The notes below the pieces were generated by a model. That model was not told the origin of the DNA. It did not search any database and saw only the letters and a list, made by a program, of their open reading frames with translations. From Streptomyces wedmorensis (GTDB taxonomy: Bacteria > Actinomycetota > Actinomycetes > Streptomycetales > Streptomycetaceae), in the NCBI RefSeq assembly GCF_000716445.1, contig NZ_JNWK01000068.1:1-41037 (forward strand): 41,037 nt of DNA, written 5' to 3'. Below are positions 2,248 to 36,644 of this stretch, in pieces (within the stretch, counting starts at the first letter, position 1; each line of letters opens with the position of its first letter). A program made the position numbers and the translations under genes.

Positions 2248-2285
2248 TTCAGATTCCGTAATGGACGATACATTTACGGCCTGAA
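2248..2285 (+). promoter_or_regulatory. Palindromic candidate operator upstream of the RpiR regulator
   Basis: CCGTAA (2256-2261) and TTACGG (2274-2279) form a perfect dyad around 12 AT-rich bases, and outer TTCAG (2248-2252) and CTGAA (2281-2285) continue the symmetry with slightly unequal spacing. It lies 89-126 bases before the regulator's ATG in an otherwise GC-rich stretch. The position suits autoregulation by the SIS-domain regulator. Binding is inferred. Confidence 0.45.
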
Positions 2286-2373
2286 GTCCAGCATTCTGAA
2301 ACAGAGACCGGACCGCGCGGCTCAGTCGGCTGTCCACAGCCCGCGGCGAGCTTCCGCCGGAGGAGGGAAACCC

Positions 2374-3252
2374 ATGAGCCTCACTCTGGCCGATGAGATT
2401 CGTGGTCGGCTCGGAGAACTGAGCCCCGCGGAGCGGAAGGTCGCGCGGGTCCTGCTCGCGGGGTATCCCTCCGCGGTCTTCGAGACCGTCGCGACGATCG
2501 CGGAACGCGCCGGGGTTTCGGCGCCCACCGTGCTGAGGTGTGCCGCGCGCCTGGGGTACCGGGGCTTCCCCGATCTGCAGGCCGCCCTCCGTTCCGAGCT
2601 CGACGCGCGCAACGCCTCGCCGATCACCCTCTACACGGCCGCGGAAGACGCGGAGCAGGACGCGGCGACGTCCGCGGGGGGTTCCTCCGCGCCCTCTCTC
2701 GGGGAACGCGCGGGGCTCGTGCAGCAGGCGGTGTCTCGGACCTTCGAGGAGGTGGCGCCTCATGAGTTCGAGGACGCGGTGGGTCTCCTCGCCGACCCCA
2801 GGCGCAGGGTGCACCTCGCGGGCGGACGCTTCACGCACCTCCTGGCCGAGTACTTGGGCCTGCATCTGATGCAGTTCCGCGACCAGGTGAGCCTGGTGCC
2901 CCACAAGGACGTGGAGCGCACGTCGTTCCTCACGCAACTCGCGCGCCGGGACGTCACCGTGTTGTTCGACTACAGGCGCTACGAGACCGACAAGACCCTC
3001 ATCGCGGAACTGGCACGGGAGCGGGGCGGCAAGGTCATCGTGTTCACCGACCCGTGGCTCTCCCCCGCCGCCGCCCACGCGGACGTCGTGCTCATCACCC
3101 AGGTCTCCTCCGACTCTCCGTACGACAGCCTGACGCCGTCGATGGCCATCGTCGAGTCCCTCGTCGCCGCCGTCCTCGATCGGATCGGCGGCGACGGCCA
3201 CGAGCGGATGAAGGCCGCCGAGAGGGTCGCCCGTCGCACCGGCCTCCTGTGA
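2374..3252 (+). CDS. RpiR/MurR family transcriptional regulator
   Basis: 292 residues. Residues 1-77 are the RpiR helix-turn-helix domain (LSPAERKVARVLL, then TIAERAGVSAPTVLRCAARLGYRGF for the recognition region). Residues ~110-270 form a SIS domain of the kind that binds phosphosugars or other small ligands, with an LAGGRFTHLLAEYL start and an ITQVSSDSPYDSLTPS segment. The start is set by GGAGGAGGG just before the ATG. The frame is open further upstream, but that part is not domain-like. The gene converges on the binding-protein gene at 3301 and is the only regulator in the peptide-utilisation locus, so it probably controls it. Its ligand cannot be read from the sequence. Confidence 0.88.
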   Translation: MSLTLADEIRGRLGELSPAERKVARVLLAGYPSAVFETVATIAERAGVSAPTVLRCAARLGYRGFPDLQAALRSELDARNASPITLYTAAEDAEQDAATSAGGSSAPSLGERAGLVQQAVSRTFEEVAPHEFEDAVGLLADPRRRVHLAGGRFTHLLAEYLGLHLMQFRDQVSLVPHKDVERTSFLTQLARRDVTVLFDYRRYETDKTLIAELARERGGKVIVFTDPWLSPAAAHADVVLITQVSSDSPYDSLTPSMAIVESLVAAVLDRIGGDGHERMKAAERVARRTGLL

Positions 3253-3300
3253 GGCCGGGCCTCGGGGCCGACCCGTGCTGCCCACGGTGCGCAGGGAGGG

Positions 3301-4251
3301 TCAGTCGAGCGCCCCGTTCACGGTCGCCTTGGGAATCCCGATGTTCGGGACCTGGTACTTCATGAGGACCTTGCGGTAGGAGCCGTCGTCCATGAGGGAC
3401 TGCAGGGCCGCCCGGATGGCTTCCTTGAGTCCGGGGCGGTCCTTCGACACGCCGATCCCCATGGGAGAGGCGCTGTACTCTCCGACGGCAGGGCGGCCGG
3501 TGACGGTGGAGAAGGTCTTGCCGTCGTCCGCCGTGGTGGCGACGTAGGCGGCCGTGACCTCGTCGAGGTAGTCGGCGATGACCTTTCCGCTGCGAAGGGC
3601 CAGTTGGGCCTCGGAGTCCTTCGAGAAGGCGAGGATCTCGATGGGCGCCAGGCCCTTCGCCTTGCAGAGCTCCTGACGCTGCTGGAGGAGCTTTTGGTGG
3701 TTGGTTCCGGTCTGAACCCCCACGGGCTTTCCGCACACATCGGTCACGACGGTGATGTGCTCGGGATTGCCCTTCCTGACCAGCCAGCCGGGGCCGGCGT
3801 TGAGGTAGTCGACGAAGTCCACGGACTTCTGCCTGGCCTTCTTGTCGGTCATGGCCGACATGACGGCGTCGAACTTACCGGCTTGGACGGCCGGCAGGAT
3901 TCCGTCGAACTTCTGCGCTTCGAAGCGGAAGGTGACTCCGAGCCGGGCCCCGATCGCCTGGCCGAGGTCGTAGTCGATTCCGGTGATCCGGGTGCTCCCC
4001 TCCTCGGTGAACATCTCGAAGGGCGGGTAGGGGACGTCGGTGGCGACGCGGACGGTGCCGGAGGCACGGATGGCCTCGGGGAGCATCGCGTGGAGCTTGG
4101 GGTCCGGGCTGACGGTGAGGTCCGGGAGGACTGCGACGGGTCCTGCCGTCCGGGATCCGTCGCGGGCGGCCGGCGTATCGGACGGAGCCCCGCATCCGGA
4201 GGTGAGAATCGCCAGGGCGGCGACGGAGATGAGCGCGGTACGGGTACGCAT
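3301..4251 (-). CDS. ABC transporter substrate-binding lipoprotein (polar amino acid type), solitary copy
   Basis: 316 residues with a lipoprotein signal (LTSGC, lipid-bearing Cys at 20). The body is a type II periplasmic-binding fold of the SBP_bac_3 family: [60 protein letters not shown]. It is a clear paralogue of the binding protein at 8824-9765 and shares these blocks nearly residue for residue, but has no permease or ATPase beside it. It could feed the permease/ATPase pair 3.6 kb away with a different ligand preference. A strong hairpin upstream (4422-4465) suggests it is transcribed separately from the S51 gene. It converges with the RpiR gene 48 bases away. Confidence 0.9.
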   Translation of the reverse strand: MRTRTALISVAALAILTSGCGAPSDTPAARDGSRTAGPVAVLPDLTVSPDPKLHAMLPEAIRASGTVRVATDVPYPPFEMFTEEGSTRITGIDYDLGQAIGARLGVTFRFEAQKFDGILPAVQAGKFDAVMSAMTDKKARQKSVDFVDYLNAGPGWLVRKGNPEHITVVTDVCGKPVGVQTGTNHQKLLQQRQELCKAKGLAPIEILAFSKDSEAQLALRSGKVIADYLDEVTAAYVATTADDGKTFSTVTGRPAVGEYSASPMGIGVSKDRPGLKEAIRAALQSLMDDGSYRKVLMKYQVPNIGIPKATVNGALD

Positions 4252-4421
4252 GGTGAGGGAGCGGCCTTTCTCGGTGGTGACGGGAGGAGGGCGGCGCCCA
4301 TCCGGTCCGGTGGGCGCGGCCGGGGCCGGCCGGATCGACGCGGCCGAGGGGATCGTGCGACGGGGCCCTGTACCGGGCGGTCTCCCCGACGTGTGGCCCG
4401 GTCGCATGCGGCCGGGCAGGG

Positions 4422-4465
4422 GAACGGCTGGGCAGGGGGGGCGGACGAGGCCTGCCCAGCCGTTC
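4422..4465 (-). terminator. Terminator after the S51 peptidase gene
   Basis: A perfect 15-bp inverted repeat (4422-4436 with 4451-4465) and 14-base loop begin three bases beyond the S51 stop codon on the minus strand. It marks the end of that transcript and isolates the solitary binding-protein gene. Confidence 0.8.
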
Positions 4466-4468
4466 GGC

Positions 4469-5761
4469 TCACCGCTGGAGTGCGATGTCCACCTGCAGGG
4501 CGACGAGGGTCCGGGCGGTGGTGTCGTCGTCGGTGAAGGCGGCGAACCCTCGTGCCTTGGTGAGGGTGACCGTGAACCGCGGTCCGCTTTCGAAGGTCGT
4601 CGCCGTCGCGCTGTTCTGCGCCCGCGTCGAGGCGAGGGCCCGGGCGGTGGTCCGGAAGGAGTAGGGGCTGCCGTCCGGGTTCGAGGCGGAGTGGAAGACG
4701 TCGTCGTTGGCCGGCACGGGTGTCGTGTTGTCGGGGGTGAGGGGGTGCTTGACGGGGGCGATGCGCGGGGTCCAGGTGCGGGCGTCGTACCGGTCGCCGT
4801 CGGTGAGGTAGCTGTACCGGGCGCGGCGGAGGGTCCAGCCGTTCGCGGAGTCGTGGGCGCGGGCGTCGCGCAGGTCGAGGACGGCGACGCCGTTCGGGCC
4901 GAGGACGGTCATGTGCTCGCGGTCGGTGCCGGGTCGGTCGACGACCAGGGCCGTGTTCTCCTCCAGGGCGTAGACACGGTCGTGGCCGGTGTCGGCGGCG
5001 AGACGCAGGGCCCGGCCTTCGCGTCCGTAGGCGCTGGTGTGGGTGTCGACGAGGCCGGTCCGGAGGAAGCCGAAGCCTCCTCGGGGCAGGTACCCGAGGC
5101 GGGTCGGGTCGTCGAAGTAGCCGGGCGCGCTGCCGTCCCGCAGGGCTTCGTAGGATTCGCCGCCGCTGACCATGTCGGGGCCGGAGGCGATCTGGGCGCC
5201 GGCGGATGAGCCGGATATGACGGCGCCGTGGGCGAGTTTGGCACGGATGGCGGCGAGCACCTTGGAGTCCTTGTGCTCGTCGCCGCGGAGGAGGGTGGTG
5301 ACGTAGCGGTACTGGTCTCCTCCTCCGAAGAAGAAGCCGGTCATGGACTCGACCTGGGCGACGACGGCGTCGGAGTCGGCGTTGGCCACATGGTCGATGT
5401 CGACGGGGATCCACTGCGCGTCGGCGGCTCCGTGCCTCTTGAACAGGTCGGCGTAGTAAGCGCCGTTGCAGGCGGAGTTGCTGCACAGGTCGGGGTCGCC
5501 GGCGTTCGGGTCCTGGCTCTGGGGCACGGAGGCGGCGGTGATGACGCCGATACGGGCCTGCGGGCCGCCGGCCCGCTTGATGATCTCCCCGTAGATCTGG
5601 GTGTTGCTCTCCTTGAGTGCCCCGCCGACCAGCACGAGGGAGCCCGTAGGGGTCCGGCCCTGTCGGGGTTCGGCGTGTGCGGCGGAAACGCCGGTGACGA
5701 GTGCGACGGCAAGGCTGCAGGCGAGGACGGTGCGGCGTGCGGGGCGGGGCGGGACGCGCAT
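4469..5761 (-). CDS. Secreted cyanophycinase-like peptidase (family S51)
   Basis: 430 residues. Residues 1-30 are a Sec signal peptide ending AHA. Residues ~40-300 match the S51/cyanophycinase fold: LVLVGGALKESNTQIYGEII, the GGGDQ loop at 146-150, and the nucleophile elbow GSSAGA with catalytic Ser 186. The C-terminal ~110 residues form an extra, probably beta-rich, domain. Cyanophycinases cleave the beta-aspartyl-arginine polymer cyanophycin to dipeptides; related S51 enzymes act on other Asp-containing peptides. The ATG is preferred over the longer open frame because the signal peptide starts there. It sits between hairpins at 5809-5839 and 4422-4465. Neighbouring peptide uptake, M20 peptidase and aspartase genes support a role in scavenging Asp-rich polymer. 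The exact substrate is inferred. Confidence 0.85.
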   Translation of the reverse strand: MRVPPRPARRTVLACSLAVALVTGVSAAHAEPRQGRTPTGSLVLVGGALKESNTQIYGEIIKRAGGPQARIGVITAASVPQSQDPNAGDPDLCSNSACNGAYYADLFKRHGAADAQWIPVDIDHVANADSDAVVAQVESMTGFFFGGGDQYRYVTTLLRGDEHKDSKVLAAIRAKLAHGAVISGSSAGAQIASGPDMVSGGESYEALRDGSAPGYFDDPTRLGYLPRGGFGFLRTGLVDTHTSAYGREGRALRLAADTGHDRVYALEENTALVVDRPGTDREHMTVLGPNGVAVLDLRDARAHDSANGWTLRRARYSYLTDGDRYDARTWTPRIAPVKHPLTPDNTTPVPANDDVFHSASNPDGSPYSFRTTARALASTRAQNSATATTFESGPRFTVTLTKARGFAAFTDDDTTARTLVALQVDIALQR

Positions 5762-5808
5762 GGTGCCTCCGAGGTCGGGAGAGGGGGTGGTGGGACTCGT
5801 ATGCCTGT

Positions 5809-5839
5809 CGGGCGGACCGAGCACGTGTCGGTCCGCCCG
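5809..5839 (-). terminator. Terminator after the ABC/M20 operon
   Basis: A perfect 12-bp inverted repeat (5809-5820 with 5828-5839) around a 7-base loop lies downstream of the M20 peptidase stop on the minus strand. It ends the four-gene operon. It is only 47 bases before the S51 start, so the S51 gene needs a short promoter here or depends on read-through. Confidence 0.78.
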
Positions 5840-5895
5840 CTCGGCCGGCGCGGCGTGGAGGGAGACGGGGCGGCTCCGCAGCGCGCCGGCGTCGT

Positions 5896-7109
5896 TCAGG
5901 TGGTGCCGGCGTCGCCGAGGGAGGTGATCATGCCGGCGAGCATGGCGACACGGTGGGGCACGCTGGCGGTGTCGAGCCATTCCTGGGGAGTGTGGTCGGC
6001 GCCTCCGACGGGTCCCAGGCCGTCCAGGACGGGGACTCCGGTGCCGGCGATCAGATTGGCGTCTCCCACTCCGCCGGTCGCGGCGGCGCCCAGTGCGATG
6101 CCGGCCGCGCCGGCGGCCCGCTGGGCATGGACGAGCATCCGCCGGGAGGCTGCGGTGTCCTCCATGGGAGGGCAGAGGTCGAGCTGCTCGACCTCGACGG
6201 TGACGCCGGGGACGCCGGGGTGGTCAGCAGCCTCCTTGATGGCCCGGCGGACCCGTTCGATGTCGGCAGTCGTGGCGGCGCGGACTTCGATGCGAAGCTC
6301 CGCCTCGGGACAGACGATGTTGGCGCGGGTACCGGCCCGGACCACCCCGACGTTGACCGTCACGTCTCCCCAGTGCCCGTTGAGGGCTTGGAGCGCGACG
6401 GTGAGGTGGGCGGCGGCAAGGGCCGCATTCGCTCCCCGCTCGGGTTCGATCCCGGCGTGGGCCGCCCGTCCGGTGACAGTGAGGCGGAAGTCGGCGACTC
6501 CCTTGCGGGCGATGACGAGGTCGCCGTTCTCCCTGGCGCATTCGAGGCCGAGACCGTAGTGCATTCCCCTTGCCGTGTCCTCGATGAGCGCCCGGCTCGC
6601 GGGGGAGCCGATCTCCTCGTCGGGGGTGGCGAGGAAGACCAGTTCGTCGTAGGCGTCGACGCCGGACTCGCCGAGTATCTCCAGGGCGGTGAGACCCGCG
6701 AGCAGTCCTCCCTTGTCGTCGCTGACGCCGGGTCCGTATGCCACGGATCCGTCGACGCGGAAGGGGCGGGCCGTGGCAGTGCCGTCCTCGAAGACGGTGT
6801 CCATGTGGGCGGCGAGGAGAATCCTGCGGCCGCCTGCCGCCTCGGAGAGTCCGCCTCGCCTGCGGCCGATGAGCGCGTCACCGGTCCGGTGGCCGTCGGG
6901 TGCGGTCGGGAAGCGCACGCGCTGGACGTCGAAGCCGATCCGTTCGAGTCTGCGCTCGATCCAGTCGGCGACGCGGTTGACGCCGTCGGCGCTGTAGGAG
7001 CCCGAGTCGATGGAGACGAGTTGCTCGAGGTCGTGCAGGAAGCGGGGCCGGAGTGCCTGGGCCAGGTCGAGGAAGTGGTCGAGCTTCTCCTGCCGGCCGG
7101 CGGGGGCGC

Positions 7110-7113
<4 letters not shown>
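5896..7113 (-). CDS. M20 family metallopeptidase (carboxypeptidase G2 type)
   Basis: 405 residues, GTG start overlapping the ATPase stop by four bases (GTGA). M20 motifs are complete: AAHMDTV (His 103, Asp 105), [10 protein letters not shown] (bridging Asp 132), ATPDEEIGS (Glu 166, Glu 167), an acidic ligand in GLECARENG (Glu 191) and a C-terminal GGADHTP (His 374). The central ~110 residues are the dimerisation domain. No signal peptide is seen, so it acts in the cytoplasm on imported substrate. Family members remove C-terminal residues such as glutamate from peptides and conjugates, or split dipeptides. As the last gene of the ABC operon it probably hydrolyses the imported dipeptide or acyl-amino acid. 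An isoaspartyl-dipeptidase-like role is attractive but not shown by motif. Confidence 0.88.
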
Positions 7114-7870
<757 letters not shown>

Positions 7871-7874
<4 letters not shown>

Positions 7875-8821
7875 CGGCTCTGCTCCTTGCTGTTCTTGCC
7901 GAGCCGCTCCACGGTCCCGCCGAGCAGACGACGGAAGGGCGAGACGTGACCGGCACGCGTGGTGCCGCGTCCGTAGTGCCGTTCCAGCCAGGCCTGGGGC
8001 ACGCCGAGGAGGGTGACGAGGGCCAGGTACCAGATGCTGGCGACGACCAGCATGGGGATGACCTGGTAGTTCTGGGCGTACACGTCCTGGATGTTCGACA
8101 TCAGGTCGTGGGCGGAGATGACCGACACCAGGGCGGTCATCTTCAGCATGTTGATGGTCTCGTTGCCCATGGGCGGGATGATCACGCGCATGGCCTGGGG
8201 CAGTACGATCCGGCGCATGGTGAGCGCGGGACGCATACCGAGCGAGTGCGCTGCCTCGGCCTGGCCGGGGTCGACGGACTGAATGCCGGCACGGACGATC
8301 TCGGAGGCGTACGCGGCCTCGTTGAGGCCGAGGGCGAGCAGGGCGGCGATCGCCGGTGTCAGCAGCGCGTTCGTCTCGGCCTGGAAGAACGTGATGTCGG
8401 TGAAGGGGACGCCGATCTTCACGTACTTGTAGAGGGCGGCGGCGTAGCCCCAGAAGATGATCTGGACGAGCAGCGGGGTGCCGCGGAAGACCCAGACGAA
8501 GGCGTTGGCGAGACCGTACAGCACCGGGCTGGACGAGAGCCGCATGACGGCGATCAGCGTGCCGAGCCCCAAGCCGAGGAGCATCGCGGCGGCGGTCAGC
8601 CAGAGCGTGGTGGCCAGGCCGTCGAAGATGAGGTCGGCGAAGAGGTAGTCGCCGACGATGTCCCAGCGCAGGTTGTCGTTCTTGGCGAGGGAGCCGACCA
8701 GACCGACGAGCGCCATCAGGGAGGCGATCGCCGCGACCCAGCGTCCGTAGTTGCGGACGGGGACGACTTCGAGTTCCTGCGCGCGCGTGGTGGTCGCGGA
8801 CGGGCTCTTGGTGTCGATCAT
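7871..8821 (-). CDS. ABC transporter permease (polar amino acid type)
   Basis: 316 residues. The N-terminal ~40 residues are cytoplasmic, followed by membrane helices starting at [16 protein letters not shown], and the HisMQ-type coupling loop ([16 protein letters not shown], then [11 protein letters not shown]). The start is an ATG two bases after the binding-protein stop. It forms the membrane channel, probably as a homodimer since no second permease gene is present. The C-terminal ~40 residues are charged and cytoplasmic. One ATPase and one permease serve at least the adjacent binding protein and possibly the paralogue at 3301-4251. Confidence 0.94.
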
Positions 8822-8823
8822 CT

Positions 8824-9765
8824 TCAGTCAACCGCCGCGTTCTTGGTGGCCTTGGGTATGGCGATCGACGCGACGCCGTACTTGTTGTAGATGTGGACGA
8901 GGTCGCCGTCGTCGATGAGGGCCTGGAGCGCCTTGAGGATCGCGTCCGTCAGCTCGGGGAGCTGCTTGCTGACGGCGATGCCGTTCGGCGAGGCGTTGTA
9001 ACCCCCCGGGGCGGCGGGGTCCTCGGCGAGGTCGAAGGCCTTGCCGCCGTCCGCGGTCTTGGCCACCCACCCGGCGGCGGGCTTGGTCAGGACCTGGGCG
9101 ATCACCTTGCCGGACCGCAGGGCGAGCTGGGCGTCGGAGTCCTTGGGGAAGGTCTGGATGTCGATCTTCCCCTTGCCCGCGGTGGAGCAGGCGGCCTGGT
9201 GGGACTTCAGGAGGTCGAGCTGGTTGGTCGCCGTCTGGACGGCGACCTTCTGCCCGCAGAGGTCGTCCAGGGTGGTCACCTTCGACGGGTTGCCCTCGGC
9301 GACCAGGATGCCGGAGCCGGACTGGGAGTAGTCGACGAAGTCGACGACCTTCTGCCGCTCCTTGTTGTCGGTGATGGCCGACAACGCGACGTCGAACTTG
9401 CCGGCCTGGATGGCGGGGACGATGCCGTCGAACTTCTGCGGCGTGAAGGTGAACCTCACCCCGAGCTTCGCTCCCAGGGCCTGGCCCAGGTCGTAGTCCA
9501 GCCCCGTCAGGGTGGGCTCGCCCTCCTTCACGAACATCTCGAACGGCGGGTACGGGACGTCGGTCGCGACGCGGACCTCACCCGCCTTCTTGATCTTCTC
9601 CGGGAGGAGATCGTGGAGCTTCTGGTCCTTGACGATCTCCGCGCCGGCGATGACGACCTTGCCGGGCGGGGCGGCGGCGTCCTCACCGCCGCAGGCGGTC
9701 AGGGACACGAGCACGGCGGCCGCGAGAGCGGCGGCCGCGGCGGGGCGTGCGATACGAGCGTTCAT
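8824..9765 (-). CDS. ABC transporter substrate-binding lipoprotein (polar amino acid type)
   Basis: 313 residues, lipobox LTAC with Cys 25, then the SBP_bac_3 fold ([61 protein letters not shown]). It is the first gene of the operon with permease, ATPase and M20 peptidase. It is paralogous to the protein at 3301-4251; the two differ mainly in the ligand-contact stretch after the VDFVDY block. Transcription starts in the AT-richer gap at 9766-10074. Ligand is inferred to be an amino acid, dipeptide or small amino-acid conjugate. Confidence 0.93.
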
Positions 9766-10074
9766 CGCGTGGAACCTCTCGGTGGTTTCCTGCCGACGGA
9801 TTCTGGCCGTCAGGCACAGCGGAGAAATTACAGATCAACTCCTTTGCTGGCTAGATGTAAACCTCATTACGTTCACGTAACGCGCCTCCAGCTGGGGCGG
9901 TATGGGCAAAATGACTGTTTTGACGCCGAAATTTTCCCGCGAACAGGCAAACGAAGGTCGAAGTTGCCTTACATCTTCCGCTTCATTTCCATTACTTGTA
10001 TGTTCCGCAACCAACGCCCTTGGACCGTGTGGGGCCACGGCGGACCGGATCGATTCCCCTCGCTTGGAGCGCAG
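9766..10074. promoter_or_regulatory. Divergent promoter region of the ABC operon and the broken S51 gene
   Basis: 309 bases without a gene, AT-richer than the surroundings. It holds a hairpin in the leader of the ABC operon (TGCC GACGG at 9791-9799 pairing with CCGTC A GGCA at 9807-9816), a dyad TTACG-N4-CGTAA at 9867-9880 whose half-sites resemble those of the dyad before the RpiR gene, and CGAAATTTT at 9927-9935, which recurs upstream of the aspartase gene. Regulator binding is inferred. Confidence 0.45.
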
Positions 10075-11421
10075 ATGCCACTCCGCTCACTCAGGTTCAC
10101 TTCGACTGCGGTCGGACTCGCCGCGATCGCGACAGCGCTGGTGGTGCATCAGCCGGCGCACGCGGCGGCCGACAGGATCCGGCTCGGCAACACGGCCGAT
10201 GCCGCCCGTGCGTCGTGGAACGGCCCGGCGTTCACGATGAACGGCGCCGGCGGTATCGTCGCCGACATCGGGAAGCAAGACTCCCGAGTGCGACGCCGTC
10301 ACCGGGCTGGCCGGGGTCAACTCGTGTACGACGTGGACGCTCACGGCGGCGAACGACGGCAACAACAGCCAGGTCAACACCGATGTCCGCAACGCCGAGT
10401 TCGTCTACTTCGCGGGCGGCGACCAGTGCCGCTACGCCGCCTGGAAGGGAACGGCCCTGGAGGCCTCCGTGGAGTCGGTGGTGGCCAAGGGCGGAGGCTC
10501 CGGCGGGGGCAGCGCGGGCCATCACATCAACAGCCCGATCGTCTACGACGCGTGCAACGGCAGCGTCACCAGCGCAGAAGCCCTCGCCAACCCCTACGAC
10601 CGATACATCAGCTTCACCACCGGCATGTTCGAGTGGGCCGACTACGGCGCGGTCGTCAACGACTCGCACTTCGTCACGCGCGACCGCATGGGTCGCACGA
10701 TGTCGTTCCTCGCCCGTGCGGTGAAGGACGGTCTCGCCCCGGGCGGCGCCGCCTGGGGCGTCGGGGTGGAGGAGGGCGGCGGGTCGCTGTTCCTCGACCG
10801 CAACGGCACGGCGACCCAGTACGGCAAGGACGCGTACGTCGTCCTCGCCGACCACCAGCCGGAACAGGCCGTCGACAGGAAGCCGCTGACCTACTCGAAC
10901 TTCAAGATCTGGCGCCTGACGCCCGGCTCGACCTTCGACTTCAAGAACCGCCCCACCTGCGGCTACTACCTCCGCAGCGTCACCAACGGCGTCGTCTACC
11001 CCAACCTCTACAACGGCACCCCGGTGACCGACTGCGGCAGCCAGGGCGGTGGTGCCACCGCTGCCGAGAGCGAGCCGAACGACACCCGCGACACGGCTGA
11101 CGACGCCACCGCGCTGACGTCCCCGGCACCGCGACCGGGAACATGAAGTCGACCGGCGACCGGGACTACTTCACCCTGAACCTCTCCTCGGGCCGGACCG
11201 TCTCCGTGAACTGCGCCGTCCCCTCCGCCTACGACGCCGACCTGTACTGGCTCGACGCCAACGGCAGCACCCTGACCCGCTCCGTCAACGACGGAGCCGG
11301 CACCGACGAGTCCCTCTCCTTCACCAGAACCGGATCCGGCACAGGCACCTACTACCTCGACCTGGAGGCGTACAGCGGCTCCGGAACCGCCGCTTACAAC
11401 TGCACCGTGACCAAGAGCTGA
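10075..11421 (+). pseudogene. Broken cyanophycinase-like (S51) secreted protein with C-terminal PPC domain
   Basis: The reading starts at ATG 10075 with a signal peptide (ending PAHA) and runs ~60 residues. Near 10270-10285 the homology jumps +1 and appears to skip a few tens of residues, resuming at TPECDAVTGLAGVNSC. The S51 core follows intact: FAGGDQCRY and a nucleophile region GGSAGHH, where relatives have GTSAGA. It runs through YSNFKIWRL to a linker with SEPNDTRDTADDA. A second frameshift near 11110-11120 then separates the C-terminal pre-peptidase (PPC) domain, GDRDYFTLNLSSG to the stop at 11421. It is unlike the intact S51 protein in detail, so it is a separate S51 subfamily. Two frame breaks make it inactive unless they are sequencing errors. 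Confidence 0.75.
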
Positions 11422-11436
11422 CCGGTTCCCCCGCAC

Positions 11437-11471
11437 CCCGTGGCCAGACCCGCATGTGGTCCGGCCACGGG
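11437..11471. terminator. Bidirectional terminator between the broken S51 gene and aspartase
   Basis: A 14-bp stem (11437-11450 with 11458-11471, one G-U type mismatch) closes on a 7-base loop and is followed by TTT. It lies between two convergent genes and can serve both. Confidence 0.8.
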
Positions 11472-11522
11472 TTTCCCGAACCGAGGACGCCCTCCGACCG
11501 CTTCGCGCGTGCGGCCGCAGTC

Positions 11523-12911
11523 TCAGACAGGCCGAACGAGCCGCTGCGGGTCGAGCAGCTCGGCTAGCCGCTCTTCGGGGAGCAGCCCGTCGCGGGCCGC
11601 GAGTTCCCGGACGGGCACACCCGTCTCCTGACACCGGCGGGCCAGAGCCGTGGCCTGCTGGTAGCCGATCACCGGGTTGAGAGCGGTGGCAAGTCCGGAA
11701 CTGCCCTCCACGAGAAGCCGCAGGCGCTCCTCGTCCGCCTGGACGCCGGCCACACAGCGTTCGGCGAGGAGAGCGCACGCGGCGCTCAACCGATTGGCCG
11801 AGTTGAGCAGATGATGAACGATCAGGGGTTCGAAGGCATTCAGCTGGAGCTGCCCGGCCTGGGCCGCCGCGCACACCGCGGCGTCCGCCCCCATCACGTC
11901 GAAGCAGACCTGGTTGACCGCCTCGGGCATGACGGGGTTGACCTTGCCCGGCATGATGCTGGACCCGGCCTGCAACTCCGGCAGCCTGATCTCGCCCAGA
12001 CCGGCCCGAGGGCCCGAAGCCAGGAGCCGGAGGTCGTTGCAGATCTTGGAGAGGCGGAGGGCGAACTGCCTCAGGGCACCGGAGAGCCGGATGAAGCCCC
12101 CGACCCCCTGCGTGCTCTCCACCAGGTCATGGGCGGCCCGGACCGGCGCCGCCGAGACGACGGCGAGGTGCCCGATGGCCAGGCGGGCGAACCCGGCGTC
12201 GGCGTTGAGACCGGTACCGATGGCCGTCCCTCCCAGGTTGACGTCCAGGAGACCATCCGCCGCGAGGCCGATGAGCTCGGCATCGTCGCGCACGGTGAGT
12301 GCGAACGCGTCGAACTCCCGGCCCAACGTCATGGGCACGGCGTCCTGCAACTGGGTGCGGCCGAGCTTGACGGTCTTGGCGAACGCCCCGCCTCGCTCGG
12401 CGAAGGCGTTACGCAACAGCGTCATGGCATCCAGCAGTCGTCCCGCAGCCGCATACAGGGCGAGCTTGGCCGCCGTGGGGTAGACGTCGTTGGTGCTCTG
12501 CGACCGGTTCACATCGTCGTTGGGGTGCAGGTGCTCGTATTCGCCGCGCCCGTGTCCCATGAGTTCCAGTGCCCGGTTGGCGATGACCTCGTTGGCGTTC
12601 ATGTTCGCCGAGGTACCCGCACCGCCCTGAAGGACGTCCACGACGAACTGGTCGTGGAGGCGGCCCTCTCGGATCTCCCGGCACGCACGCACGATGGCCC
12701 GCCCCCGCTCCTCGGGAAGCGTCCCGAGGTCCAGGTGCGCCGACGCCGCCGCCGCCTTCACGTCGGCGAGAGCGACGACGAGCTCGGGATGCGACGAGAA
12801 CGGTATCCCTGTGAGCGGGAAGTTCTCCAGTGCCCGGAGGGTGTGGATGCCCCAGTACACCTCGGCATCCACCTCCCGGGCACCGATCAGGTCATGCTCC
12901 TCGCGCTGCAT
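11523..12911 (-). CDS. aspA: Aspartate ammonia-lyase
   Basis: 462 residues, the normal length of the family. The fumarase/aspartase signature GSSIMPGKVNP lies at 316-326 with the catalytic Ser in its SS pair. GGAGTSANMNANEV (96-109) and the QSTNDVYPT segment (138-146) are substrate-binding regions typical of aspartase rather than fumarase. The enzyme converts L-aspartate to fumarate and ammonia. The start was placed at ATG 12911 because AAGGGG precedes it and the family N-terminus (REEHDLIGAREV) begins there; the frame is open 14 codons further. An AT-rich promoter region lies upstream. In this context it would channel aspartate released from peptides into the TCA cycle. A close alternative is another member of the fumarase/aspartase superfamily. 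Confidence 0.9.
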   Translation of the reverse strand: MQREEHDLIGAREVDAEVYWGIHTLRALENFPLTGIPFSSHPELVVALADVKAAAASAHLDLGTLPEERGRAIVRACREIREGRLHDQFVVDVLQGGAGTSANMNANEVIANRALELMGHGRGEYEHLHPNDDVNRSQSTNDVYPTAAKLALYAAAGRLLDAMTLLRNAFAERGGAFAKTVKLGRTQLQDAVPMTLGREFDAFALTVRDDAELIGLAADGLLDVNLGGTAIGTGLNADAGFARLAIGHLAVVSAAPVRAAHDLVESTQGVGGFIRLSGALRQFALRLSKICNDLRLLASGPRAGLGEIRLPELQAGSSIMPGKVNPVMPEAVNQVCFDVMGADAAVCAAAQAGQLQLNAFEPLIVHHLLNSANRLSAACALLAERCVAGVQADEERLRLLVEGSSGLATALNPVIGYQQATALARRCQETGVPVRELAARDGLLPEERLAELLDPQRLVRPV

Positions 12912-12953
12912 ACCGACCCCTTCACCTTGGCGAGCTGCTCTTCCTATCGACAA

Positions 12954-12982
12954 GTATCAGGTATTACAGATATGCACTTCAA
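12954..12982 (-). promoter_or_regulatory. Candidate promoter of the aspartase gene
   Basis: On the minus strand TTGAAG (complement of 12977-12982) and TGATAC (complement of 12954-12959) are exactly 17 bases apart, in a clearly AT-rich patch about 45 bases before the start codon. The first box fits a housekeeping -35; the second is a poor -10, so confidence is limited. CGAAATTTT at 12991-12999 just upstream repeats the sequence at 9927-9935. Confidence 0.35.
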
Positions 12983-13299
12983 TGGTCGTTCGAAATTTTT
13001 ATTACCGATCCGGCGGGGCTCGGGCCGCTCGCGCACCTCCGGCACGAGGAACGGCAAGTCCGCCACGCCGGGCAGCGACAGCCCGGACCGGCCCCCTCGG
13101 GCACTCGACGTCGCACGAGACCTCGCCGAGCGGCTTACGGCAGGTCGGCGTGTTCTGCTGCACCAGGTCCCGTGCAGCCGTTCGGCGCGTGAGCCCGTCA
13201 GCGGACCCGCCAACCCCCGCCCCGGTCACCGGCGAGCAGCGAGCCCCCGGCGGCAGCCCACCGGCCGCCTCCGCCCGTGAGCTTCGGCGCTGCAGGCAC
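12983..13299. other. Gap without a recognisable gene
   Basis: Begins with the AT-rich promoter upstream region of the aspartase gene. The rest is GC-rich and has open frames on both strands with no recognised domain, start site or convincing codon bias. It may be eroded coding DNA. Confidence 0.4.
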
Positions 13300-14061
13300 T
13301 CAGGTCGCCCAGGGCGCAAGCATGTCCTTCATCGCGTCCGCCATGGCGAATTGCAGCAACGGCCCGTAAGTGATCCGGCCGACGCCGAGACGGCGGAAGT
13401 GCTCGAGGTCGTGCTTGACGGGGTGGGCCGTGGTGTTCACCGGAATGGCGACAGCGCCGATCACAGTCGCGAGCAGGGCGTCGTTGTCCTGAATGCTCAC
13501 CGGGTAGACGCTGTCGGCTCCCGCCTGCTCCATGGCCCGCAGCCTCTCGATCGCCTCGTCCAGCACGGCGGAGGCATCGTCGGCGTTCTGGAACACGTCG
13601 GTACGCCCGTTGACCCATACCGGGATTCCGGCGTCGTCGGCCGCCGAGCGGAGACCGGCGATGAAGTCGGCATGCTCCCGCGTGCCGCGCATGCGCCCAC
13701 CCTCCGAGTGAACCGTGTCCTCGAGGTTGAGACCGACGCCACCGGCCTCGACGAGTCCGGCGATCAGATCTGCGGGCTGCTGTCCGTAACCCGCCTCCAG
13801 GTCCACCGACACGGGAACGTCGACCGAGACGGTGATCCTCCGGACAGCGTCGAGCACTTCTCCGAAAGTCTGCCCCTCATGGTCGTCAGCCCCGCGGGAG
13901 TCGGCGAGCGGATGGCTGCCGACGGTCAGCGCCGGAAACCCGGCGGCGACCGCCGTCCGCGCGGACCAGACATCCCAGACGGTGGGTAGCACGAGCGGCT
14001 TGTGGTCAGCGTGCATCTGCTTGAGGCGTTGAGCGCGCTCAACGGTCGTACGGAAGTCCAT
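13300..14061 (-). CDS. PEP mutase / isocitrate lyase superfamily protein
   Basis: 253 residues. Superfamily marks: LVLPTVWDVWSARTAVAAGF at the N-terminus, VDLEAGYG (metal-binding loop), GLNLEDTVHSEGG (the ED pair), and WVNGRTDVF. The Cys-containing KKCGH loop of true isocitrate lyase is absent, so it belongs to the group holding PEP mutase, 2-methylisocitrate lyase-like and oxaloacetate-hydrolase-like enzymes. These make or break C-C or C-P bonds next to a carboxylate. Substrate unknown; the nearby aspartase suggests C4-acid metabolism, which is only context. ATG start with the expected FRTTVERAQRLKQMH opening. No operon partner overlaps it. Confidence 0.85.
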   Translation of the reverse strand: MDFRTTVERAQRLKQMHADHKPLVLPTVWDVWSARTAVAAGFPALTVGSHPLADSRGADDHEGQTFGEVLDAVRRITVSVDVPVSVDLEAGYGQQPADLIAGLVEAGGVGLNLEDTVHSEGGRMRGTREHADFIAGLRSAADDAGIPVWVNGRTDVFQNADDASAVLDEAIERLRAMEQAGADSVYPVSIQDNDALLATVIGAVAIPVNTTAHPVKHDLEHFRRLGVGRITYGPLLQFAMADAMKDMLAPWAT

Positions 14062-35804: not shown

Positions 35805-36644
35805 ATGCCTCGACAGCGGCCGTATCCGAGTGACCTGTCCGATGCCCGGTGGGAGTCGATGGAGCCCATTCTGTCGGCCTGGCGGGCCGACCGGAGGGGG
35901 AAGGGCCTGGGCATAGGCCGGCCGCCCGAGCACGACCTGCGGCGGATCATGGAAGCGGTCCTCTACGTCGACCGCACCGGCATCCTCTGGCGATACCTGC
36001 CGCACGACTTCCCGCCATGGGAAACGGTCTACGGCTACTTCGCCGCCTGGCAGAAGGACGGAGTCTTCGACCAGCTCAACGGGCTCCTCCGCCGTCTGGT
36101 CAGGGAGGCGGAGGGTCGCGACGGCGAGCCGAGTGCGTGCGTGCTGGACGCGCAGAGCATCAAGACTTCCGCGAACGTCCCCGCGGCCGGCCGGGGCATC
36201 GACGCGGGCAAGAAGATCGCGGGCCGCAAGCGCCATATCGGCGTCGACACCCTCGGTCTTCTCCTGGCCGTGCCGGTCACCGCCGCGAGCGTCTCCGACA
36301 ACGCCGGCGGCATCCAGGTGCTCTCACAGATCTCGAAGGCCCACCCGCGTGTGACCAAGGCCTGGGCCGACAGCGGCTACCGAATCAAAGCCATCGAGCA
36401 CGGAGCTCGCCTGGGCATCGACGTCGAAGTCGTCCATCGCGACCCGGCCGCGAAGGGCTTCAAGGTGATCCCACGGCGCTGGGTCGTCGAGCGGACCTTC
36501 GGCCGGCTCATGCACCACCGACACCTCACCCGCGACTACGAGACCCACCCACACCGGCCCGAAGCGATGATCAAGCTGGCAATGGTCGACCTCATAAGCC
36601 GCCGCCTCACGAGGGAATCCACCCTGAACTGGCGTGATTCCTGA
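35805..36644 (+). CDS. IS5-family transposase
   Basis: 279 residues. It opens with an RQRPYPSDLSDARWESMEPI segment typical of the IS5 group, followed by the DUF4096-like domain (GRPPEHDLRRIMEAVLYVDR, WRYLPHDFPPWETVYGYFAAW). The DDE catalytic set appears as the first Asp in VLDAQSIKTS, the second in KAWADSGYRIKA and the Glu in VVERTFGRLMHHR. The gene is intact and full length, so it may be active. The ATG gives the standard N-terminus of the family. Confidence 0.93.
   Translation: MPRQRPYPSDLSDARWESMEPILSAWRADRRGKGLGIGRPPEHDLRRIMEAVLYVDRTGILWRYLPHDFPPWETVYGYFAAWQKDGVFDQLNGLLRRLVREAEGRDGEPSACVLDAQSIKTSANVPAAGRGIDAGKKIAGRKRHIGVDTLGLLLAVPVTAASVSDNAGGIQVLSQISKAHPRVTKAWADSGYRIKAIEHGARLGIDVEVVHRDPAAKGFKVIPRRWVVERTFGRLMHHRHLTRDYETHPHRPEAMIKLAMVDLISRRLTRESTLNWRDS

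Follow-up and report, generated by a model that had tools for sequence, protein, structure and literature searches.

A co-regulated gene module of S51-like peptidases, an ABC importer and an M20 peptidase in Streptomyces wedmorensis, a candidate scavenger of extracellular aspartyl polymers or peptides

In the passages of PMC10206079 that cite Ben Hania et al., gene clusters for scavenging cyanophycin combine a cyanophycinase, an isoaspartyl dipeptidase and a transporter. Two other relevant systems are the extracellular CphE enzymes of Pseudomonas anguilliseptica and P. alcaligenes, described in passages of PMC3235067, and the dipeptidase E Orf2 of Streptomyces sp. 139, described in passages of PMC11078827. 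Here we compare with these a locus of Streptomyces wedmorensis in which genes for two S51-like peptidases (S51a and S51b), an ATP-binding cassette (ABC) importer, an M20 peptidase, an aspartase-type lyase and an RpiR-family regulator lie together. The window, by which we mean the whole stretch of DNA analyzed, is 41,037 nucleotides long and is one entire contig (C68, NZ_JNWK01000068.1) of a genome of 9.38 Mb in 259 contigs. On balance, we favor the reading that the locus is a single co-regulated module for scavenging an extracellular aspartyl polymer or peptide. A literature search covering titles, abstract openings and passages found no paper on this module. Its features are as follows, with coordinates in the window.

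2258–2271, 5' of the RpiR gene: palindromic operator-like site GTAATGGACGATAC, 17.0 bits.
2374–3252, + strand: RpiR-family regulator with HTH_6 (51.2 bits) and SIS (67.7 bits) domains by Pfam.
3301–4251, − strand: SBP1, a PAAT-type solute-binding protein (SBP); PF00497, 112.2 bits on a longer frame.
4469–5761, − strand: S51a, a peptidase of the cyanophycinase fold, predicted to be exported; PF03575, 31.7 bits against a cut-off of 23.9.
5896–7113, − strand: M20 peptidase, cytoplasmic, similar to carboxypeptidase G2 (CPG2) but without an equivalent of its Arg324; PF01546, 96.7 bits.
7110–7874, − strand: ABC ATPase of the polar amino acid type; ABC_tran, 125.3 bits on a longer frame; PRK09493, 331.2 bits, below the cut-off of 379.
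7871–8821, − strand: ABC permease of the HEQRo 3TM type; PF00528, 72.0 bits; TIGR01726, 70.0 bits, above the cut-off of 42.2.
8824–9765, − strand: SBP2, a solute-binding protein with Thr in place of the amine-binding Asp; PF00497, 111.0 bits.
9857–9870, between the divergent SBP2 and S51b genes: palindromic operator-like site, 11.9 bits with a 14-position model and 18.1 bits with a 16-position model.
10075–11421, + strand: S51b, a second S51-like peptidase, predicted to be secreted, with a C-terminal PPC domain and broken here; TIGR02069 match.
11523–12911, − strand: enzyme of the aspartate ammonia-lyase (aspartase) type; PRK12273, 666.5 bits (cut-off 510) with the frame extended by 14 residues.
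12954–12967, 5' of the aspartase gene: palindromic operator-like site, 13.6 bits.
13300–14061, − strand: phosphoenolpyruvate (PEP) mutase family protein, a neighbor judged not to be in the module; PF13714, 207.1 bits.

The families named in a first-pass annotation of this DNA (RpiR, S51, ABC importer, M20, aspartase and PEP mutase) were each found by profile search. Neighboring genes in the run from SBP2 through permease and ATPase to M20 either overlap or are separated by 2 bp, and S51a begins 134 bp beyond M20 on the same strand, so that these five look like one operon. Judged by eye, S51a and S51b have signal-like N termini and those of both SBPs are lipoprotein-like. The same genome carries the complete set once more, on contig C13 (locus L030).

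Like the cyanophycin utilization locus of Ben Hania et al., as far as the cited passages describe it, the module clusters a cyanophycinase-like gene with a dipeptide-degrading enzyme and a transporter, and comes with no full synthetase; it is a layout variant of that locus. It differs in that its S51 enzymes fall under the cyanophycinase cut-off, in having an M20 enzyme instead of IadA or IaaA, in its RpiR gene and common palindrome and in the aspartase linked to some copies. Because neither the cyanophycinase cut-off nor that of IadA/IaaA is reached, we do not assign the module to that system. S51a resembles CphE, by the description in PMC3235067 and not by sequence, in its predicted export and in carrying a GXSXG serine motif with His and Glu, and the gene sizes are 1260 bp (CphEal) versus 1293 bp; unlike the CphE described there, S51b has a PPC domain in most of the intact copies inspected. 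Orf2 of Streptomyces sp. 139 has family S51 and a Streptomyces host in common with the module, whereas, again by description only in the passages of PMC11078827, it is of the PepE type and lies in an exopolysaccharide cluster.

In the pathway that we propose, S51a and S51b, as secreted serine peptidases, would cut the extracellular aspartyl polymer or peptide into small (iso)peptides. These would be taken up by the importer, which is of the polar amino acid type and has an SBP apparently adapted to a ligand without a free α-amino group in the usual pocket, and would be hydrolyzed in the cytoplasm by the M20 peptidase, and the linked aspartase could then deaminate the aspartate to fumarate. The RpiR protein would probably act on the palindrome GTAAY-N4-RTTAC ahead of SBP2/S51b, the aspartase gene and rpiR itself. 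The direction of this pathway, its ligand and the aspartate content of its substrate are what we infer, and aspartate is the likeliest theme.

Evidence that these genes belong together comes from two surveys, which overlap in strains and are not independent. The first covered 295 genomes of the same genus, evenly drawn and including the source genome; the second covered 80 named actinobacterial loci chosen for S51a alone, the best 80 of 94 relatives. In the first, S51a was found in 22 genomes, the source genome among them, and S51b in 19, all within those 22; the M20 gene (E ≤ 1e-110) was found in 29, including every genome with S51a. The loci around S51a in these 22 genomes include S51b in most cases and the aspartase in some. 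The recurrent order is aspartase, S51b (divergent), SBP2, permease, ATPase, M20, S51a and RpiR, sometimes followed by SBP1.

The second survey gave a similar picture. Among 74 loci with enough flank (L116, L122, L127, L129, L151 and L154 were set aside as too short), M20 is co-located with S51a in 72. The first-pass annotation would have been contradicted by S51 genes never linked to the ABC/M20 unit, and what is found is the opposite: the module recurs around S51a in other Streptomyces genomes. M20, ATPase, permease, an SBP and RpiR all occur together in 69 of 71 full-flank loci, made up of 57 of the Streptomycetaceae type, 12 of Micromonosporales and two long ones of Actinoallomurus, with nine short loci uncounted. 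In the Streptomycetaceae-type loci, with 6 kb of upstream flank, M20, ATPase, permease, SBP2 and RpiR are each present in 57/57, S51b in 48 and SBP1 in 15. In Micromonosporales, 12/12 loci contain S51b along with M20, ATPase, permease, RpiR and an SBP; in ten of them the order, on one strand, is S51a, S51b, RpiR, SBP, permease, ATPase, M20, with L149 and L161 differing. Since the content is the same, the order is new and the mean identities of the Micromonosporales module genes are 43–76%, a joint function is strongly indicated.

Outside the module, the flanks of the Streptomyces loci are not common, scattered small clusters excepted. Further flank genes in Micromonospora amounted to a few clusters in five or six loci, by eye ordinary neighbors, and were not added to the module. 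The PEP mutase, which the first-pass annotation had listed in the locus, was rejected as a member, with no counterpart in the available flanks of the 80 named loci (0/80) or of 30 other loci.

The second line of evidence is the palindrome. Motif discovery on the regions upstream of module genes gave GTAAY-N4-RTTAC from 80 deduplicated SBP2 upstream regions; the model was retrained on 70 non-Micromonosporales SBP2 upstream regions and applied at 12 bits. The first motif search had also used Micromonosporales SBP2 regions, and for this reason the test sets of the aspartase and of RpiR are the only blind ones. The shuffle used as a control was a simple block shuffle. The site is found 5' of the aspartase gene in 20 of 21 deduplicated regions (≥12 bits) and 5' of 34 of 35 RpiR genes (not deduplicated) that are at least 70% identical to that of the window. 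This 70% division was set after a first count of 22/86; the same script gives 21/74 for deduplicated non-Micromonosporales RpiR regions. In Micromonosporales the palindrome precedes SBP2 in 10/10 cases and S51b in 12/12, and the Streptomycetaceae S51b upstream regions are largely the same intergenic region as that of SBP2. Control upstream regions gave 2/81 for S51a, 0/69 for M20, 0/75 for the permease and 1/72 for the ATPase. The intervals upstream of module genes, which total 71,857 bp over all loci, hold 185 sites, versus 5 in 2,090,068 bp elsewhere, a count that includes training sites and duplicate strains.

The importer operon, S51b, the aspartase and the window-type RpiR gene thus have one signal in common. 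Together with the linkage to M20, the sites ahead of the aspartase support treating depolymerization, import, hydrolysis and deamination as one unit, as the first-pass annotation had done. The RpiR protein itself is present in all 57 Streptomycetaceae-type and all 12 Micromonosporales loci, and we think that it probably binds GTAAY-N4-RTTAC.

In the genome of S. wedmorensis the pattern GTAAYNNNNRWTAC occurs at 6 distinct places, 4 of them within the two module copies; a reversed control pattern has 3 strand matches versus 7. The two remaining places, C7:154513 and C78:4518, were considered as further regulon members and are probably unrelated, their neighboring genes resembling, on visual inspection, those of a PadR-type regulator and of an EamA-type transporter. 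In L036, L091 and L141 there are two RpiR genes of differing type, and the palindrome lies 5' of the window-type one only.

In the two predicted secreted enzymes the catalytic residues are conserved almost throughout. The catalytic triad of the cyanophycinase CphB is Ser132-His174-Glu201. Residue counts here and below were made after dropping identical sequences, hits with less than 75% query coverage and hits containing stops. Equivalents of CphB Ser132, His174, Gln101, Asp172, Arg180 and Arg183 are invariant in the S51a (n = 89) and S51b (n = 51) sets, and that of Glu201 is present in 85/89 and 48/51, respectively. The Gln173 equivalent is replaced in both sets, and in S51b every other CphB loop residue examined is kept. 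Arg178, reported in passages of PMC12661447 to be necessary for the binding of β-(Asp-Arg)2, has an equivalent in 51/51 S51b sequences versus 16/89 for S51a.

These observations bear on whether the substrate is cyanophycin itself, with S51b (alongside S51a) as an extracellular cyanophycinase, β-Asp-Arg as the imported dipeptide and M20 as the missing isoaspartyl dipeptidase. The S51b loop, including Arg178, fits this proposal, as do the predicted models of S51a and S51b, whose first structural matches are CphB-type, and the existence of the comparable scavenging clusters in the passages of PMC10206079 introduced above. However, all six S51 proteins scored and the S51b piece of the window fall below the TIGR02069 cyanophycinase cut-off of 126.6 bits, with a range of 43.6 to 120.5: S51a gives 98.6 (window), 88.7 and 104.5, intact S51b 43.6 and 56.7, and the window piece 45.6. 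Neither enzyme can therefore be called a cyanophycinase by this equivalog. The top sequence match of S51a among solved structures is 7uqv, titled 'pseudo-CphB', and because this protein keeps the same DQHFxxRxRxxR loop, that signature is not proof of activity.

The carrier genomes point both ways. Cyanophycin synthetase (TIGR02068) is over its cut-off in 0/22 carriers, as would hold for scavengers, with weaker partial matches in 22/22 and a positive control in 1/14 genomes. The known dipeptidases that the proposal would call for are likewise under their cut-offs: the Asparaginase_2/IaaA family in 0/22 carriers, IadA in 0/22 (weak partial matches only) and the aspartoacylase type (PF04952) in 0/22, the last being the weakest test, with its control positive in only 1/14 genomes. 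Nor was an arginine-catabolic gene recognized among the genes of the module. Taken together, we regard cyanophycin as a possible but unlikely substrate. As these known families are under cut-off, M20 is the obvious candidate for splitting β-aspartyl dipeptides, if such dipeptides enter through the module.

When the alignments of S51a and S51b were compared as profiles, the probability obtained was just 45%. S51a meets the PF03575 cut-off in its relatives (34.9 and 31.2 bits) as in the window. S51b is below it (intact copies 14.0 and 16.5 bits, window piece 15.1) and is termed S51-like from its TIGR02069 matches (E 5.7e-12, 2.4e-11 and 2.4e-15) and its fold match. The S51b model has a mean predicted local distance difference test (pLDDT) score of 66.5, and its list of fold matches also includes unrelated chance entries and PPC-like domains; we take the match as supportive only. 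Searched by sequence against solved structures, intact S51b gave weak hits only, and among the matches listed its relatives are mainly annotated as hypothetical or as PPC-domain proteins. S51b is the most conserved secreted part, the L030 copy having 69% mean identity to those of Micromonosporales versus 51% for S51a of the window.

That the second S51 gene of the window is broken, as the first reading of the sequence had it, is borne out by comparison with the intact paralog (L030:3612-5042, 476 residues). About two dozen residues of the N-terminal region are gone and at least 2 frame changes leave the pieces in three frames; the open piece 10241-11143 matches TIGR02069 (E 5.7e-12) and the third frame, 11143-11421, bears the PPC domain (33.1 bits). 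This may reflect either decay or an assembly fault.

Other loci vary in their S51 genes. The place of S51b is occupied by an S51a-like gene of ~50% identity in three loci from records titled Kitasatospora (L128, L134 and L138) and in one from a record titled Streptomyces sp. (L139), and that of L134, at 120.5 bits, comes nearest of all to the cyanophycinase cut-off. Inspection by eye of the open reading frames of 13 loci for another secreted enzyme in place of an absent S51b revealed no common gene. Degenerating copies also occur: L052 (G162:C12, the second copy of genome G162) has a truncated M20 gene and a split S51a gene, and L051 (G057) a split S51a gene.

The intracellular and binding components also bear on the ligand. 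The nearest solved structure to M20 is CPG2 (E 2.5e-54); its solved relatives also include 7ljh, a poly(aspartic acid) hydrolase, with a far weaker match (E 7.2e-14). The M20 enzyme has both the sequence family and the metal ligands of CPG2: the metal ligands and catalytic Glu, H112, D141, E175, E176 and E200, are present in 85/85 sequences and H385 in 84/85. It differs at the position of Arg324, which in CPG2 holds the glutamate carboxylate and is here Cys in 74 and Thr in 11 of the 85, and in scoring 303.9 bits, under the NF004788 (carboxypeptidase G2) cut-off of 349. In SBP1 the Asp of the amino acid clamp is kept in 15 of 17 sequences and the Arg in 17/17, whereas SBP2 keeps the Arg in 82/82 and has Thr for the Asp in all 82.

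One could suppose from this that the M20/ABC core imports N-acyl or glutamyl amino acids, that the S51 enzymes are add-ons for another polymer and that aspartate is not the common theme. The kinship of M20 with CPG2, the occurrence of the core without S51 genes in 7 of 29 genomes and the Thr of SBP2, which would suit any N-blocked amino acid, are all compatible with such a role. Set against it are the loss of the glutamate-holding Arg from every M20 sequence and the operator-like palindrome that the aspartase has in common with the core, and we consider it unlikely.

It is this shared palindrome that makes aspartate the likeliest theme and speaks for it as a product. The lyase scores well over the PRK12273 cut-off, yet at 603.1 bits it is under the TIGR00839 equivalog cut-off of 681.2, and its top solved matches are the fumarate lyase 3ocf (E 1.7e-149) and aspartases. 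The aspartase link is compatible with any source of aspartate, and the module might serve a more general use of acidic or Asp-X α-peptides, its S51 enzymes being like secreted relatives of aspartyl dipeptidase E with no special polymer involved. Family S51 does include α-aspartyl dipeptidases, one of them characterized in Streptomyces sp. 139 (passages of PMC11078827). We hold this more general use to be possible but somewhat unlikely, and prefer the scavenging of an aspartyl polymer or peptide by a dedicated module.

Several observations weigh against that preference. A linked aspartase gene occurs in 19 of 57 loci of the Streptomycetaceae type and in 0/12 of Micromonosporales, so that the assignment of aspartate as product rests on a minority. 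In 7 of the 29 M20 genomes the set SBP2-permease-ATPase-M20-RpiR occurs with neither S51 gene, so that the importer and M20 can be of use independently of the two secreted peptidases, and two Actinoallomurus loci, the exceptions in both linkage counts, have S51a without the other module genes. SIS-domain RpiR proteins are usually sensors of phosphosugars, which does not point to peptides. The palindrome is found 5' of 0/67 RpiR genes less than 70% identical to that of the window (not deduplicated), of 0/12 Micromonosporales RpiR genes and of just 3/15 SBP1 genes, which makes it less certain which RpiR protein reads it, and the SBP2 site of the window, at 11.9 bits, is slightly under the 12-bit line.

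The analysis defines a co-regulated nutrient module common to Streptomycetaceae and Micromonosporaceae, the genes of which are now annotated piecemeal. If its substrate is a β-aspartyl polymer, M20 would represent a novel type of isoaspartyl dipeptidase, and if it is cyanophycin, the module would give soil actinomycetes a cyanobacterial source of nitrogen. According to a passage of PMC10206079, isoaspartyl dipeptidases have yet to be discovered in Firmicutes and Bacteroidota, and the conserved M20 of this actinomycete module is a candidate for another such class. The furthest extension, which we consider quite unlikely, is that M20 forms a new isoaspartyl dipeptidase class in addition to those of IadA, IaaA and aspartoacylase-like enzymes, that S51b founds an actinobacterial clade of secreted β-aspartyl depolymerases and that Streptomyces and Micromonospora thus eat cyanophycin or a related β-aspartyl polymer of soil cyanobacteria.

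Some further observations concern the position of the locus. On all ten S51a contigs of at least 7 Mb (G172, G270, G074, G232, G057, L099, L115, L134, L140 and L159) it lies within ~10% of an end, as expected for chromosome arms in Streptomyces, where chromosomes are linear. For L159, a scaffold from Micromonospora, an end position may mean nothing. In G137, a genome with M20 only, the locus is mid-contig. L137, from a record titled Microtetraspora glauca, has an S51a 81% identical to that of the window, and the strain name may be wrong. Elsewhere in the window, the frame at 14353-15324 matches the functionally uncharacterized family DUF6479 at 134.1 bits, and an IS4/5-type transposase (DUF4096, DDE_Tnp_1) lies at 35805-36644.

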